From assembly GCA_016188625.1 (NCBI GenBank), contig JACPHL010000336.1, positions 1-6,368 on the forward strand: a DNA stretch of 6,368 nucleotides, read 5' to 3'. Positions 275 to 6,368 of the stretch are shown piece after piece (within the stretch, counting starts at the first letter, position 1; every line of letters begins with the position of its first letter). Source of the DNA: Candidatus Rokuibacteriota bacterium. GTDB taxonomy: Bacteria; Methylomirabilota; Methylomirabilia; Rokubacteriales; JACPHL01. The translations under genes and the position numbers were made by a program. The notes below the pieces were generated by a model, which worked only from the letters and a program-made list of their open reading frames with translations, was not told the DNA's origin and did not search any database.

Positions 275-350
275 TGGTGGACGATGCAGGACTCGAACCT
301 GCGACCTCTGGCATGTGAGGCCAGCGCTCTGCCAACTGAGCTAATCGTCC
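275..350 (-). tRNA. tRNA-Val (anticodon CAC)
   Basis: This is a complete 76-nt tRNA including an encoded 3' CCA (275-277). The acceptor arms are GGACGAT and ATCGTCC with discriminator A. The D stem is GCTC/GAGC around an AGTTGGCA loop. The anticodon stem is CTGGC/GCCAG around the loop CTCACAT, giving anticodon CAC (plus-strand 315-317), which reads GUG valine codons. The T stem is GCAGG/CCTGC around TTCGAGT. All arms pair without mismatch. It lies 58 bp past the stop codon of the sensor kinase on the same strand, so it may be reached by read-through from that gene as well as from its own promoter. No integrase or attachment-site duplication is visible next to it. Confidence 0.97.
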
Positions 351-408: not shown

Positions 409-2499
409 TCAGGCCGCCAGGTCGCGCTCGAGGATCTGCTGGGTCACCCGGCGGACCTCCGCGGGCGCAAACGGCTTCCCCAGGCTCGGCACCCCGGTCC
501 GCTCCAGCAGGGCGCTGGTCTCGGGACTCAGCGCGTCGCCCGTGACGAAGCCGAACCGCCGGAGCATCCGGGGATAACGTGCCCCCAGCTCGCGGTAGAG
601 CCCCGGACCGTCGAGCCCCGGCATCCTGATGTCGCTCACGATCAGGTCGTAGGCCCCCTCCGCGAGCTTGGTGAGCGCCCGGACGCCGTTGGCCGCCGTC
701 TCGACCCGGTGGCCGTCGGCCGCCAGCATCTCCGCCAGCACGCCCGCCACCTCGGGCTCGTCGTCCACGACCAGGATCGTCTTCCCCTTGACGGGCAGCG
801 GCGCCTCGGCTAGCTGGGCCTCGGGGACCACCCCGCCCGGCTCCTCCACGGGCAACTCGATCCGGAAGAGGGCGCCCTGACCGGGCGAGCTCTCCACCTG
901 GATCGTTCCGCCGTGGCGCTCGACGACGCCCTGGCAGAGGGCCAGCCCCAGCCCGGTCCCCTGCCCGGGCGCCTTGGTGGTGAAGAACGGCTCGAAGATC
1001 CGCCGCTGGATCTCCGGTGGGATGCCGGGGCCCGTGTCCCTGACCTCGAGGATGGCCCGGCCCCGCGCGGGGTCGTGGCGCGTGGAGAGGGTAAGCCGGC
1101 GCGGCGAGGACGTCTCCCGCATCGCCTGATGCGCGTTGGTCGCGAGATTGACCAGGACCTGGTGGAGCTGGTGCGGGTCGGCCCAGAGCCGGGGGAGGTC
1201 CTCGGCCAGGTCCATCTCCACCTCCACGCTATCCACCCGGAGGGAGTAGGCCAGGAGCTCCACCGCCTCCTGGACGATCTGATTGAGCCGGACCTCCCCG
1301 CGCTCGGGCGGGCGCTGGCGCGCCAGGGCGAGGAAGTTCCGCACGATGCGCGCGCACCGCTCCGCCGACTGGGCGATCTTCTCGGCCCGCTGCCCCAGCG
1401 GCCCGCCCCCGACCACCTGGCGAAGCAGCGCGGTCTGGCCGACGACGACCGAGAGCGGGTTGTTCAGCTCGTGGGCCACCCCGGCCAGGAGCTGCCCCAT
1501 CGCCGAGAGCTTCTCGGCCTGGAGCATCTGCTGCTGGGCCTCGGTCAGCCGGAGCTGCTGGGCCTCGACCACCTGCTGGAGCCTCCGGGCCGAGCGCCGG
1601 GCCTCCTCCAGCAGGCGGGCGTTGTCCACCGCGTAGGCGATGTAGGTGATGAGGGTATTCAGGAACTGGAGATCCGTGGTACTGAAGGGGCGGGCCTCGG
1701 CCCCCACCACGCCGGCCTTCTTGGCCAGGTTGACCACGCCGATGACCCGCTCCCCCGCGCGCACGGGCAGGGAGATGAACGAGCGGCTGCCGTACCGGAG
1801 ATCGTTGGAGCGGGCGAACCGCGGGTCCGTCTCGATATCGTCCACCAGGACCGGCTCCCCGATCTCCGCCACCTTCCCCGCGATCCCCTCGCCCACCTTC
1901 ACCTCGCTGTTTGCGACGACATCCTCCGGCAACCCGTGGGCCACGGCGATCCGGAGGGTCTGCCGCTCCTCGTCCAGGAGCATGATCGAGCCGATGCTCG
2001 CCCTGACGGTGCGCATCGTCCGATCCAGGACCAGCCCGAGGAGATCCTGGATCCTGGGGATCTTCGCCGCCACCTCGGCCATCTCGTTCAGCGTGCCGAG
2101 CTTGAAGACCAGATCCTCAAGGCGCTCGGTGGAGGTCCTGAGGTCCTCGACCATCCGGCCGAGGGCCGCGGCGAGCTGGCCGACCTCGGTGACGGGGCCG
2201 AGGCCCGGCACCGTGAGCGCCTCGGCGGTGAGCGGCTTCGCCACATGCTCTTCGGGGGCGCCCAGGGCCCGGGCGAGCGTGGAGACCTGACCGACGAGCC
2301 GCTGAGAGAGGATGAACCCCAGGAGCGAGACCAGGATGGCCACCAGCAGCCCGCCCTGGATGATCGTCTCCTTGAGCAGATCGTAGCGCACGAGCAGGAA
2401 CACGAACACCAGCAGAGGGAGCGCCGCGCTCATGGCAAAGATGGTCGCGGACGCCTCCCGGAGGCTCAGGCATCTCGAGAACAGGGATCCGAGCTTCAT
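409..2499 (-). CDS. Membrane-anchored GAF hybrid sensor histidine kinase with C-terminal receiver
   Basis: A 696-residue hybrid two-component kinase of the inner membrane. Two closely spaced hydrophobic helices (about residues 18-38 and 47-66) leave almost no periplasmic loop. A HAMP-like linker follows (to about 125, with [13 protein letters not shown]), then a GAF domain (about 150-295) as the likely cytoplasmic sensor. A Q/E-rich coiled coil (295-330) leads to HisKA with phospho-acceptor H343 in [11 protein letters not shown]. The HATPase_c domain has an N box ([11 protein letters not shown]451/N455), G1 (DTGPGIP, 488-494), F box (FEPFFTTK) and G2 (GTGLGL). A receiver domain (574-690) has acidic D579/D580, phospho-acceptor D623 (SDIRMPG), T653 and K675. 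All catalytic residues are present. The ATG at 2499 is preferred because GGAGGAGGAG ends 2 nt before it; the frame opens further upstream (to 2790), but that part is proline/arginine-rich and overlaps the next gene. The signal and the downstream output partner are unknown. No DNA-binding domain is attached, so phosphate probably passes to another protein. Confidence 0.94.
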
Positions 2500-2654
2500 G
2501 GCTCCTCCTCCATATACCTCATTAATGTTATCGCGGGACCGGATGTAAGCATCGCAACGGATCTCTGCAGGGAGGATGCCAGAGGGAACCTCAGAGGGAT
2601 CTCTTATAAACCGGAAGGTTAGCTCAAGGCGGACGGCGAGGGGCGACGAGCAGG

Positions 2655-2689
2655 TGCCAGGGTGGCACCCCAGTCGTGCCATCCTGGCA
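2655..2689. promoter_or_regulatory. Tandem dyad TGCCA-N3-TGGCA, two copies 22 bp apart (operator or stem-loop)
   Basis: Two short dyads sit side by side: TGCCA-GGG-TGGCA (2655-2667) and TGCCA-TCC-TGGCA (2677-2689). Their start-to-start spacing is 22 bp, two helical turns, so a dimeric regulator could bind both on one DNA face. The two also form one large inverted repeat with 14-bp arms (2655-2668 and 2676-2689, one mismatch) and a 7-nt centre. The element lies 16 nt past the stop codon of the Mut7-C gene and about 155 bp upstream of the kinase start. As an RNA hairpin it could end the Mut7-C transcript, but no T-tract follows on the minus strand (CCTGCTCGTC). I favour a regulator-binding site controlling the kinase, with the terminator as the alternative. 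Confidence 0.45.
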
Positions 2690-2705
2690 TGGCTGGAGAG
2701 ACTGG

Positions 2706-3170
2706 CTATCGAGGCGGGTCCTCGACGAGGGGGCGGAGGCGGGCGAGGATCCGGTCGGCGTGGCTCCCCGGCCAGAAGACCTTCCCGCACCCGGGACAGC
2801 CGTAGAACTCCGACTGGGTCTCCAGGGTGTAGGCCGGAACCAGCCCCACGACCTCCTCCCGCGCGCGGGCCTCGAGGGGGGTGTTGCAGTCGAGGCAGCG
2901 GCTCAGGAGCTCGCCCCCGGAGGGGCCGAGGGCGGCCACGACCTCGCGGAGCTGGGCGTCGAGCCCCTCGGTCTGGATCAGGAGACCCTGCGCCCGCGCC
3001 GTCCGGGCGAGCCGCGTGTCGCGGGTCAGCAGGACGCGCCCTTCCTGGCGCGCGATCCGGAGGAGCTCGACGTCACGGGCGTGGCGGAGATAGACGGTGT
3101 CGTAGCCCAGGGCCCGGAGCCAGCGGGCCAGCCTCCCCAGCATGGAATCCACCACGAAGCGCGCGCTCAC
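2706..3170 (-). CDS. Mut7-C family PIN-like RNase-domain protein with zinc ribbon
   Basis: A 154-residue soluble protein matching the Mut7-C family (formerly DUF82): a PIN-like nuclease half followed by a zinc ribbon. The N-terminus FVVDSMLGRLARWLRALGYD carries the hallmark Asp (D8) and the LGRLARWLR signature. The second acidic motif is LLTRD (D51). The zinc ribbon uses C92-x2-C95 (RCLDC) and C125-x2-C128 (GCPGC). Family members are predicted metal-dependent RNases, but bacterial stand-alone copies have little direct functional work, so no substrate is claimed. The start is GTG at 3170, chosen because the ATG at codon 10 would cut off the conserved D8; the Shine-Dalgarno is poor. The gene is divergent from the dihydroorotate dehydrogenase (48 bp between starts) and ends 16 nt before the tandem dyad. 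Confidence 0.88.
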   Translation of the reverse strand: MSARFVVDSMLGRLARWLRALGYDTVYLRHARDVELLRIARQEGRVLLTRDTRLARTARAQGLLIQTEGLDAQLREVVAALGPSGGELLSRCLDCNTPLEARAREEVVGLVPAYTLETQSEFYGCPGCGKVFWPGSHADRILARLRPLVEDPPR

Positions 3171-3218
3171 CGGGTTGCGCCCCTTCGGGGCCTATTGTAT
3201 CCTGACCCGAGGCCCGCC

Positions 3219-4253
3219 ATGCCTTCTGCCCTGATCGATCGGGTCTACGCGCTCTTCTACGGCGGGCTTCTCTCCCGCCTCCCCGAGGCCCGGGCGGTCC
3301 GACTCGGCCAGGCCCTCCTCCGCCTCCTCCCCGTCGAGGGGATCCCGGCCTTCCGGCGCGAGGACCCGCGGCTCGCCGTCACGCTCGGCGGGGTTCGGCT
3401 CCCGAACCCCGTGATCCTCTCCTCGATGTACTACGACCTCCGGATCCTCGGGAAGGCGCTGGCCCTCGGGTTCGGCGCGGTAACGACCAAGAGCATCACC
3501 CCGGCCCCGCGCCCCGGCCACCCCGAGCCCACCCTCGTCCGCCGGTCGAGCGCCCTCGGGCCCGGCTTCGTGAACTGCAACGGCTTCAAGAACCCCGGGC
3601 TCGCGGCCTACCGCGACGCCCTCGCGGGCTTCCGGCGGACCCGCCCGCTCATCGTAAGCGTGGCGGGGGAGTCCGTCGAGGAGTACCGGGCGATGGTGGA
3701 GGGGCTCGAGCGGTACGCGGACCTGGTGGAGGTGAATATCTCCTCCCCCAACACCCGGCTGGTCTACCAGCTCTCGGCCTCGCCGGAGCGGGTCCGGGGG
3801 CTCCTGAAGGAGGTCCGGGCGACGACGACGAGACCGCTGGTCGTGAAGCTCTCGCCCGACTACCTGGAGGAGAACTTCCGCGCCATCGTCCCCGCGGCGC
3901 TCGAGGTGGGGGTCGAGGCCGTGAACTTCGGGAACACGCGCCGGGTGGAGGAGCCCGGGCTCTCCCAGGGGGCCGGGGGGCTCTCGGGGCCGGAGCTGTT
4001 CGAGACGGTCCTCGAGACGGTTCGGCGCCTCCGCGAGACCTTCGGGCAGGGGTTAGGGCTGATCGCGACCGGGGGGATCGACTCGCCGGCCAAGGCCCTC
4101 CGGGCCCTGGAGGCCGGGGCGGACGCGGTCGGCTACTTCACCGGGTTCGTCACCCGCGGCCCCGGCCTGGCCCGCCGGATCCTTGACGCCCTCCTCGAGA
4201 CCGTGGACCACCGCGGCCTCCCGGGCGTCTCGGCCCTCCGCGCCGCGCACTGA
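3219..4253 (+). CDS. pyrD: Dihydroorotate dehydrogenase, probably class 2 (quinone-linked)
   Basis: A 344-residue FMN TIM-barrel enzyme of the dihydroorotate dehydrogenase family, which oxidises dihydroorotate to orotate in pyrimidine synthesis. The N-terminal 40 residues (LIDRVYALFYGGLLSRLPEA and onward) resemble the amphipathic helices with which class 2 enzymes touch the membrane and quinone. Recognisable motifs are TTKSITPAPRPGHPEP with FMN Lys K91, NISSPNT (173-179) with the class 2-type catalytic Ser at S176, VVKLSPD (K210), the phosphate-binding ATGGI (283-287) and YFTGFVTRGPG. Two stretches look more like class 1B enzymes: the K-S-I-T-x-x-P-R-x-G loop and the NGFKNPG segment. Class 2 is therefore likely but not certain, and a non-pyrimidine paralogue is conceivable. 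No other pyr gene is in the window. The ATG at 3219 has GAGG 6 nt upstream; the frame stays open further upstream only as antisense of the Mut7-C gene. Confidence 0.85.
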   Translation: MPSALIDRVYALFYGGLLSRLPEARAVRLGQALLRLLPVEGIPAFRREDPRLAVTLGGVRLPNPVILSSMYYDLRILGKALALGFGAVTTKSITPAPRPGHPEPTLVRRSSALGPGFVNCNGFKNPGLAAYRDALAGFRRTRPLIVSVAGESVEEYRAMVEGLERYADLVEVNISSPNTRLVYQLSASPERVRGLLKEVRATTTRPLVVKLSPDYLEENFRAIVPAALEVGVEAVNFGNTRRVEEPGLSQGAGGLSGPELFETVLETVRRLRETFGQGLGLIATGGIDSPAKALRALEAGADAVGYFTGFVTRGPGLARRILDALLETVDHRGLPGVSALRAAH

Positions 4254-4292
4254 GCCGCCGCTCGATGTCCGGGCGAGGGGTCTGCCGGCTCC

Positions 4293-4514
4293 CTATGCTC
4301 GCAGATCCTGACGCTGGACCTCGTACTCCTCGCGGCTGAGCTCCCCCCTGGTGTAGCGCCGCTTCAGGATCTCAAGCGGCTCATCGGCCTTCTCCCCTCG
4401 GACGCCCGTGGTGACCAGCCAGTGGATCGTCAGGATGATGGGCACGAGGACCATGCTCCCGAAGACGAGCATCAGGGCCGTGGTGCCCCACGCCCCCCAC
4501 ATCCAGTGCAGCAT
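4293..4514 (-). CDS. Small one-helix membrane protein with SHOCT domain, nirK partner
   Basis: A 73-residue protein. The N-terminal half is one hydrophobic helix (about residues 9-34, ALMLVFGSMVLVPIILTIHW) preceded by the Trp-rich start MLHWMWG. The C-terminal half is a SHOCT motif: EPLEILKRRYTRGELSREEY (45-64), followed by a short tail. SHOCT segments occur at the ends of many small membrane proteins and are thought to help assembly; their exact job is not settled. It starts 17 nt after the nirK stop codon, with AGGGGG 7 nt before the ATG, so the two are very likely co-transcribed and the small protein may help anchor or assemble the nitrite reductase or a nearby electron donor (inference). 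The gene faces the dihydroorotate dehydrogenase gene convergently with only 39 bp between them, and no clear terminator is seen there. Confidence 0.85.
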   Translation of the reverse strand: MLHWMWGAWGTTALMLVFGSMVLVPIILTIHWLVTTGVRGEKADEPLEILKRRYTRGELSREEYEVQRQDLRA

Positions 4515-4531: not shown

Positions 4532-5545
4532 CTACGGCCGGGGCGCGAAGATCCCGGGGGCGTCGGGGCCGGTGACGACCAGCTCGGCCATCGCGCCCTT
4601 CTCGACCGCCCGGAAGATGCTGTGGTCCACGAGCCGGTAGGTCCCCGGCACCTCCACGCGGAACTCCACGATCGCCGCGCCGCCCGCCGGGATGAGCGTC
4701 GTCTGGACGTTCCGCTGGGGGCCGCTGCCCACCGCGCCCTCGGGGTACACGGCGTCGAAGATCTCCCCGATCACGTGGAAGGAGGAGACCAGGTTGGGGC
4801 CGCCGTTGCCGACGTAGAGCCGGACGGTCTCGCCGACCTTGGCCTGGAGGGCCCGCTCCCCTTCCAGCGCGCCGACCCGGCCGTTGAAGACGACGTAGTC
4901 CGGCTGCTCGGCCCGGGCCTTCTCGTACGAGAAGAGACGGAGCGCGCCGGCCCCGGCCATCGTGTAGAACTCCCCCTGCATGACGTAGTACTCGCGGTCC
5001 ACCGGCGGCAGCCCCCCCTCGGGCTCGACCAGGATCAGCCCGTACATCCCGTTGGCGACGTGGGCCCCGATGTGCGGGGTCGCGCAGTGGTAGACGTAGA
5101 GGCCGGGGTTGAGGGCCTTCCAGGTGAAGCCGCCGGTCTGGCCCGGCCCCACCTGGGTGGCCACCGCGCCGCCGCCCGGCCCGGTCACCGCGTGGAGGTC
5201 GATGGAGTGGGGGAACTCGCTGTCCGCCCGGTTGGTGAGCTGCAGCTCGATGGTGTCGCCGACCCGGACCCGGATGAACGGGCCGGGGACCGAGCCGTCG
5301 AAGGTCCAGAAGCGGTACTCGGCGTCGTCGGCCAGCCGCCCCCGGACCTCGACCGTCTCCAGCTCTACCAGCACGGTCGCCGGAGCGGTTCGCGCGATCG
5401 GCGGCGGGACCGCCGGCGGCGCCGTGAGCGCCGCGGGGACGGGCTCGGACGGCGGGAGCGGACGGGCGCCGGTGAGGGTCAGGAACGCCCCCGCGCCGGC
5501 CAGGGCGAAAGCGAGCACGGTCAGTCGGAGCCAGCGGCTCTTCAT
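4532..5545 (-). CDS. nirK: Copper-containing nitrite reductase, class II (AniA-like)
   Basis: A 337-residue periplasmic two-cupredoxin-domain enzyme reducing nitrite to nitric oxide, full length for the family. After a hydrophobic signal or anchor (about 1-28, no lipobox Cys) comes an Ala/Pro linker (29-55). The type 1 copper ligands are H113 (FPHS), C154, H162 and M167 in [18 protein letters not shown]. The type 2 ligands are H118, H153 and H308 (VDHS). The catalytic Asp is D116 (HSIDLH) and the second catalytic His is H257 (SSFHVIG). Eight residues between C154 and H162, plus [12 protein letters not shown] and [10 protein letters not shown], match the AniA-type class II enzymes rather than the Alcaligenes-type class I. 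No haem or extra cupredoxin domain is fused. The ATG at 5545 has AAAGGAG 6 nt upstream. It heads an operon with the SHOCT gene. A sigma-54 promoter match lies about 100 bp upstream, suggesting control by an enhancer-binding activator, perhaps NO-responsive (inference). Confidence 0.96.
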
Positions 5546-5646
5546 CGGTTTCTCCTTTACGGTGTTGGCCTTCGGGGTCGCCTCGCGCTACCCCTGGGCG
5601 CTGGGTGATCCCCGGAAAACATTGTCGAATTCCTTGTGAAAGAAGG

Positions 5647-5662
5647 TGCAAGCTCCTTGCCA
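5647..5662 (-). promoter_or_regulatory. Sigma-54 (-24/-12) promoter of nirK
   Basis: Read on the minus strand from 5662 the sequence is TGGCAAG-GAGC-TTGCA, against the sigma-54 consensus TGGCACG-N4-TTGCW. Eleven of the twelve informative positions match, and the essential GG (5661-5660) and GC (5649-5648) are exactly 12 bp apart. The predicted transcript start is near 5636, giving a nirK leader of about 90 nt. Sigma-54 promoters need an AAA+ activator bound upstream, and symmetric sites are found at suitable distances (5737-5758 and 5798-5852). The core GCAAG-CTC-CTTGC is also a small palindrome, so a repressor site is an alternative reading. Confidence 0.62.
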
Positions 5663-5736: not shown

Positions 5737-5758
5737 AGTGGGGCACCCCTGCCCCACT
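5737..5758. promoter_or_regulatory. 22-bp dyad, candidate activator site for nirK
   Basis: Arms AGTGGGGCA (5737-5745) and TGCCCCACT (5750-5758) are perfect 9-bp reverse complements around CCCC. The centre lies about 112 bp upstream of the predicted nirK transcript start, the usual distance for an enhancer-binding protein of the sigma-54 system. The sequence does not match the NtrC (TGCACC...GGTGCA) or NorR patterns I know, so the binding protein is unnamed. In RNA it would form a stable hairpin, and a terminator for an unseen transcript is a weaker alternative since no T-tract follows on either strand. Confidence 0.4.
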
Positions 5759-5797: not shown

Positions 5798-5852
5798 TTC
5801 GCCTTTCTGGAAGGATAAATCTGGTTGATTTTCGCCTTCCAGGAAGGCTAAA
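5798..5852. repeat. Two 22-bp dyadic direct repeats 33 bp apart, candidate enhancer sites
   Basis: Copy 1 (5798-5819) and copy 2 (5831-5852) agree at 19 of 22 positions, starting TTCGCCTT and ending in TAAA. Each is itself symmetric: copy 2 contains the perfect 15-bp dyad GCCTTCC-A-GGAAGGC (5834-5848), and copy 1 a slightly degenerate version. Their centres (5808 and 5841) are 33 bp apart, about three helical turns. A half-copy CCAGGAAG (5774-5781) lies a further 32 bp towards nirK, and a left half CCTTCC is at 5871-5876. Tandem sites about 32 bp apart are known for NtrC at glnAp2. The copies sit about 170 and 205 bp upstream of the predicted nirK start, and 35-70 bp upstream of the higB -35, so either operon could be the target. 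Confidence 0.5.
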
Positions 5853-5876
5853 AGGCCCCCCGGGGAAAAACCTTCC

Positions 5877-5911: not shown

Positions 5912-6217
5912 ATGATCCGGTCCTTTGCGGACCAGGGGACAGAAGACGTGTTTAACGGCCTGAACAGCAAGACGGCCCGTCGAAGCTGCCCCCGTGAACT
6001 GTGGGCTGTGGCCAGCCGGAAGCTGGACCAGCTCGATTCCATGGAAAGCTTGGAAGAGCTTCGGATCCCCCCGGGGAATCACCTCGAAGCATTGGTGGGT
6101 GACCGGAGAGGCCAGCACAGCATCCGGATCAACGAGAGGTACCGGATCTGCTTCCGCTGGACGACGGAGGGTCCATCGAACGTGGAGATCGTGGATTACC
6201 ACCAGCGGCGGACGTAA
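5912..6217 (+). CDS. higB: HigB toxin, RelE/ParE-superfamily mRNA interferase
   Basis: A 101-residue toxin of the HigB (RelE/ParE) fold, which in characterised members enters the ribosome and cleaves mRNA during translation. The signature segments are the start MIRSFADQGTEDVFNG, the LEELRIPPGNHLEALVGDR loop (48-65), GQHSIRINERYRICFRW (67-83) and the C-terminal VEIVDYH (91-97), with H97 at the position of the usual active-site tail. Length is normal, with a small extra tail QRRT. The toxin precedes its antitoxin, which is the higBA order. No Shine-Dalgarno stands before the ATG (GATATCGTGTCTCG), so translation may be leaderless. This start is fixed by the conserved MI-SF N-terminus. G/C at third positions is somewhat lower than in the nirK and kinase genes, which would suit a transferable module. 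It is divergent from nirK. Confidence 0.94.
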   Translation: MIRSFADQGTEDVFNGLNSKTARRSCPRELWAVASRKLDQLDSMESLEELRIPPGNHLEALVGDRRGQHSIRINERYRICFRWTTEGPSNVEIVDYHQRRT

Positions 6218-6228
6218 GGAGATCGGTT

Positions 6229-6368
6229 ATGGTTCGAGTACCGATGCACCGAGAACCCACCCACCCCGGGGAAATGCTGCTTGAGGAGTTCCTAAAGCCG
6301 ATGGGGCTTTCCCAGCGGGACCTTGCCCGTGGCATTCGGGTTCCCTATCAAAGGGTGAACGAGCTGAT
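6229..6368 (+). CDS. higA: HigA antitoxin, XRE-family HTH protein (3' end outside window)
   Basis: The first 46 codons are visible and the frame is open at the right edge. The N-terminus MVRVPMHREPTHPGEMLLEE, followed by FLKPMGLSQRDLARGIRVPY and QRVNEL, is typical of HigA/VapI-type antitoxins: the HPGE-x-L-x-E-E motif (12-20) leads into the helix-turn-helix (about 28-46). It binds and silences HigB and represses the shared promoter. The ATG at 6229 has AAGGAG ending 7 nt upstream, overlapping the higB stop codon, and the intergenic gap is only 11 nt, so the pair is translated from one message. An internal ATG at 6244 would give a start closer to that of many homologues, but it has no ribosome-binding site of its own as good as the first. 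Confidence 0.93.
   Translation, partial: MVRVPMHREPTHPGEMLLEEFLKPMGLSQRDLARGIRVPYQRVNEL

Follow-up and report, generated by a model that had tools for sequence, protein, structure and literature searches.

Predicted sigma-54 promoter and NtrC-type enhancer upstream of nirK in a Candidatus Rokuibacteriota genome

The window, a stretch of 6,368 nucleotides from a Candidatus Rokuibacteriota bacterium, carries nirK on the minus strand (4532-5545). The product of this gene scores 357 bits against the copper-containing nitrite reductase model TIGR02376 (cut-off 296) and matches relatives of known structure; the residues at what we take to be the copper-ligand positions are invariant among relatives. 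Judged by its sequence, this nirK is a true copper nitrite reductase gene. A Shine-Dalgarno sequence, AAAGGAG (5552-5558, minus strand), is located just ahead of the ATG, and the open reading frame directly downstream of nirK (4293-4514, minus strand) encodes a small membrane protein with a SHOCT domain, possibly co-transcribed with nirK. Divergent from nirK, on the opposite strand, is a gene encoding a HigB-like toxin (5912-6217); behind it, a probable HigA-type antitoxin gene begins but is truncated where the contig ends (region 5912-6368). Two similar palindromes, CCTTTCTGGAAGG and CCTTCCAGGAAGG, are found at 5800-5855 between nirK and the higB-like gene and are perhaps the operator of this toxin-antitoxin pair. 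The window also encodes a tRNA-Val (anticodon CAC; 275-350, minus strand).

Pattern searches, a matrix score and shuffles identified a predicted sigma-54 (-24/-12) promoter, TTGGCAAG-GAGC-TTGCA, upstream of nirK at 5663-5647 (minus strand; TTGGCAAGGAGCTTGCA). The GG at 5661-5660 and the GC at 5649-5648 show canonical spacing and 101 bp separate the motif from the nirK ATG, which confirms an earlier note that had placed TGGCAAG-N4-TTGCA about 100 bp before nirK, in the right orientation and with exact GG/GC spacing. Counting 12 bases on from the GC element places the predicted start of transcription at about 5636 (minus strand), where that note had also expected it. The promoter differs from TTGGCAYG-N4-TTGCW by one mismatch and was the sole match to this pattern with up to two mismatches in the whole window (chance expectation 0.14). 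On a hand-made sigma-54 matrix based on the known consensus it scores 19.3 of 22.5, a score reached by one of 3000 Markov shuffles of the nirK upstream region. Genome-wide, the pattern TTGGCAHG-N4-TTGCW, in which H allows the A present at the nirK site, yielded nine matches with at most one mismatch and none when reversed, and the nirK site is one of only two exact matches in the genome. Taken with these scores, the presence of rpoN in the same genome (208 bits), for which the note had proposed to look, bears out its proposal of a sigma-54 promoter at nirK.

The motif could also have arisen by chance, with nirK transcribed from another promoter, such as one of the FNR/NnrR type or a divergent sigma-70 promoter. 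Such a reading would fit the absence of the motif from most nirK genes of the order and the control of nirK by FNR/NnrR/DNR, NsrR and NarP elsewhere (PMC1274295). It is, however, very improbable: the shuffle, genome-wide and class-wide controls speak against it, a promoter scan found no sigma-70 promoter upstream of nirK, and the search of this region for an FNR-type box, TTGAT-N4-ATCAA, found none within three mismatches, the best match having four. Sigma-54 control of nirK is thus strongly supported by the quality of the site, the presence of rpoN and, as described below, a conserved promoter-enhancer architecture and NtrC-type regulators adjacent to nirK in relatives.

Further upstream, 75 bp from the sigma-54 motif, is a perfect palindrome, TGGGGC-N6-GCCCCA (5739-5756). 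Approximately 111 bp separate its centre from the predicted nirK start, and the palindrome is the predicted site of an NtrC-family regulator of the type encoded on contig C41 of the same genome. Similar dyads are found on C41 and in the relative G076 (window, TGGGGCAGGGGTGCCCCA; C41, TGGGGCGGGGCTGCCCCA; G076, TGGGGCGCCGCTGCCCCA). The exact dyad occurs four times in the 2.6-Mb genome, as compared to once for the reversed control, and three of the four occurrences are followed, 63-94 bp further downstream, by a sigma-54 site: those at nirK, at the C41 stress-protein gene and on contig C78. The fourth (contig C271) falls inside a protease-like gene and is probably a chance occurrence. On a matrix built from 32 dyads, all from outside the window's genome, the window dyad scores 20.3, which none of 3000 shuffles reached, and it also agrees with these dyads at positions left free in the search (T or C at position 1, C at 6, a purine at 7 and G at 13). 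The dyad is likely to be the enhancer at which a conserved response regulator of the NtrC family acts. The palindromes near 5800-5855 (CCTTYCNGGAAGG) were also considered as the enhancer and rejected, as they were not seen in the promoters examined in relatives.

Whichever strand is taken, the palindrome at 5739-5756 can fold into a stable hairpin of 9 bp (46-nt stretches, -27.3 and -19.8 kcal/mol; z, -4.7 and -3.4), and the HigB-like toxin gene begins at 5912 on the other strand. The palindrome might thus have nothing to do with nirK and be an RNA hairpin or terminator, or else serve the divergent higB-like gene as an operator. This is hardly credible. The palindrome is not followed by a T-run, was not listed by the terminator scan and is located upstream of the predicted nirK start; the hairpin or terminator reading was rejected for want of a T-run and because of this misplacement. 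As to an operator, the GGGG-N8-YCCC element of the relatives precedes sigma-54 sites, where no higB gene was seen.

The pairing of dyad and sigma-54 site was found to recur across the genome. A composite pattern (GGGG-N8-YCCCA, 45-105 bases, TGGCA-N6-YTGC) gave five matches in the window's own genome and none for the reversed control; this pattern had been widened to allow the A of the nirK promoter plus one more base, a change that gained nirK alone while the reversed control stayed at zero. Besides nirK, the composite promoters belong to the C41 stress protein, a thiolase-like protein and a pyruvate:ferredoxin oxidoreductase, both on C78, and an NtrC-type regulator on contig C258. With a narrower composite ending in TGGCAY-N5-TTGC, which does not match nirK, 81 matches (some being tandem dyads that share one promoter) were obtained in 30 of the 95 genomes of the class and none in the controls. 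The two C78 promoters lie within 1707-4317 (L217), and the dyad and sigma-54 site at 1684-1892 of C258 (L253) precede the gene of another NtrC-type regulator, which suggests a regulatory cascade. The genome's other exact match to TTGGCAHG-N4-TTGCW, on contig C247 (L194, 7617-7706), is found before a small glycine-rich lipoprotein-like gene; as there is no such dyad nearby, this site is probably served by another activator.

Orthologues of nirK were drawn from 59 related genomes and 95 genomes of the class, with gene starts in these relatives called by a simple, untrained script. In G007, the site TTGGCAGG-CCCG-TTGCT begins 64 bp before nirK, and directly upstream of this promoter are the genes for a PAS histidine kinase and for a regulator of the NtrC type (REC, AAA+, Fis-type HTH). 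The G007 nirK dyad is imperfect, with two mismatches, and nirK is the first gene of a stress-protein cluster. In G076, which represents another family of the class, the kinase gene, the regulator gene, GTGGCACC-GCTC-TTGCT and nirK are consecutive and a stress-protein gene comes after nirK. A plausible sigma-54 site heads an apparent operon with nirK as its last gene in G071, and a weak candidate is present at nirK in G036; no sigma-54 site was found at the other nirK genes of the order. The expectation that the motif would be conserved upstream of orthologous nirK genes thus held for some of them (G007 and G076) and failed for most of the order. Universal conservation of the sigma-54 site before nirK was accordingly rejected, as the site is clear within the class only in the window, G007 and G076. 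Among named genomes, whose 80 best-matching nirK loci come almost entirely from other phyla, no locus carried both dyad and sigma-54 site. Since the sigma-54 label is scattered on the NirK tree, this mode of nirK control probably arose or was lost on several occasions. The same tree showed that the NirK sequence of G070 is identical to that of a named Candidatus Methylomirabilota genome (L094), and the class is thereby assigned to this phylum. Directly upstream of nirK, G070 carries a gene that looks Rrf2-like (NsrR type) by eye (L198, 8516-9001) and has no sigma-54 site; in G014 (L009), where nirK likewise lacks the sigma-54 site, the palindromes TATGACCTAGGTCATA and TATGATTTAGCTCATA, possibly CRP/FNR-type operators, precede the gene.

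Orthologues of the G007 regulator, with 50-60% identity, were found in about 18 relatives. At most of the regulator loci examined, the kinase gene comes first, then the regulator gene, with a sigma-54 site and a universal-stress-protein gene close behind, and the adjacent stress-protein clusters also encode further stress proteins as well as CBS-domain and adenylylsulfate-kinase-like proteins. The element GGGG-N8-YCCC is kept ahead of the sigma-54 sites in these relatives, often imperfect and in tandem. Contig C41 of the window's genome has the same arrangement, with genes for a PAS/GAF kinase and a regulator, CTGGCATT-CTCG-TTGCA and, at the contig end, the first part of a universal-stress-protein gene. 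The C41 regulator combines a REC domain with a sigma-54-interacting AAA+ domain carrying GAFTGA, and its Fis-type HTH (GGNVSQAARAAGIDRKTFHRLLNKY) matches the G007/G076 regulator family, which no other readable activator HTH in the genome does. In this assembly, the HTH and the AAA+ domain are in different reading frames; they are intact in the relatives examined, and the frameshift may have been introduced during assembly or may be a true lesion. The sensory part of the C41 kinase is unlike that of relatives. C41 and the window are joined by binning only, in a bin of 344 contigs that is 84% complete.

Taking into consideration that this genome carries about 17 sigma-54 activator genes or fragments and is incomplete, nirK could be sigma-54 dependent and yet be served by a different NtrC-type protein recognizing the same dyad, either the C258 regulator, whose gene carries a dyad and sigma-54 site of its own, or one encoded on a missing contig. 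The frameshift in the C41 regulator would also favor a substitute. This reading is unlikely, although less so than a chance motif, as the C258 HTH is of another type and the C41 HTH alone matches the family that adjoins dyad-bearing promoters in relatives. The earlier note had offered either a NorR-like, NO-sensing activator or a two-component AAA+ protein. The second option agrees with the C41 pair, to which the dyad points; NorR was rejected, as none of the 17 matches to the NorR equivalog among the genome's proteins was above the cut-off and the dyad is unlike the NorR site, GT-N7-AC (PMC1274295). The suggestion that the hybrid kinase of the window may feed the activator has likewise fallen away: the dyad points to a kinase/NtrC-type pair on another contig, in which the C41 regulator is encoded next to a kinase of its own and shows no tie to the hybrid kinase, which is therefore not a likely regulator.

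With the C41 regulator as the preferred activator, nirK would be transcribed from the sigma-54 promoter at 5663-5647, with a start at about 5636. The closed promoter would need an AAA+ activator at the dyad (5739-5756) for opening, most likely the C41 NtrC-family response regulator (REC, sigma-54-interacting AAA+, Fis-type HTH), which would be phosphorylated by the PAS/GAF histidine kinase encoded beside it. This conserved Methylomirabilota pair would govern a stress, probably low-oxygen, regulon. Its members would be universal stress proteins, pyruvate:ferredoxin oxidoreductase, a thiolase and a further NtrC-type activator, joined in some lineages by nirK. That the nirK promoter is opened from the dyad by a C41-type regulator of a stress/low-oxygen regulon is, on balance, a good probability. 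The promoter and dyad motifs, their co-occurrence across genome and class, rpoN and the location of regulator genes of this family beside such promoters and beside nirK are present in the sequences themselves; binding of the C41 regulator to the nirK dyad, and activation by this binding, would be the steps added to them. The genes that would be co-regulated, for universal stress proteins, pyruvate:ferredoxin oxidoreductase and thiolase, look like hypoxia or energy-stress regulons, and this likeness, together with the NmpRSTU system as an analogue, suggests that the pair responds to low oxygen or to energy limitation.

As a standard denitrification marker gene, nirK normally has its expression interpreted through FNR/NnrR/NsrR logic. 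Denitrification in this organism is probably under an NtrC-type two-component stress/low-oxygen circuit rather than the usual FNR- or NO-sensing regulators. Because no transcription proceeds from a sigma-54 promoter unless its activator is present, NO production in these uncultured bacteria would follow a two-component stress signal. The broader proposal, in which we place even confidence, is an undescribed Methylomirabilota sigma-54/NtrC-type regulon with the site TGGGGC-N6-GCCCCA, which would turn on universal stress proteins, pyruvate:ferredoxin oxidoreductase and further genes of low-oxygen or energy-stress metabolism and into which nirK was wired more than once, so that nitrite reduction would be strictly activator-dependent and tied to general stress, not to NO or nitrite sensing. 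The finding at nirK also offers a defined, testable regulon, together with its binding motif, in a phylum where few regulators have been studied.

No report of a sigma-54-dependent nirK was found in the open-access literature, to which the search was confined. The known DNR/NnrR/FNR, NsrR and NarP control of nirK (PMC1274295) involves the same target gene, but other regulator families and another promoter class. NorR, a sigma-54-dependent NO sensor that targets NO reductase and NO-detoxification genes (PMC1274295), resembles the proposed regulator as a sigma-54 activator of nitrogen-oxide genes but differs in its targets and dyad. In Bradyrhizobium, NifA, also a sigma-54-type activator, affects nirK expression (PMC4064962, PMC3916325), but this effect is RpoN-independent according to the passage of PMC3916325 that cites Bueno 2010, whereas nirK of the window has a promoter that is itself of sigma-54 type. 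Of the studied systems found, the closest is NmpRSTU of Myxococcus xanthus, a hypoxia-induced oxygen-limitation system described, in the passages of PMC11841059 consulted, as having an NtrC-like response regulator, dyad enhancers before sigma-54 promoters, and universal stress and CBS-domain proteins among its targets. As described there, NmpRSTU differs in its dyad (GCGCA-N5-TGCGC, as compared to the TGGGGC-N6-GCCCCA shared by the promoters studied here), in its protoglobin-kinase phosphorelay and in its named targets, which include cbb3 oxidase and HemN and, in those passages, not nirK.
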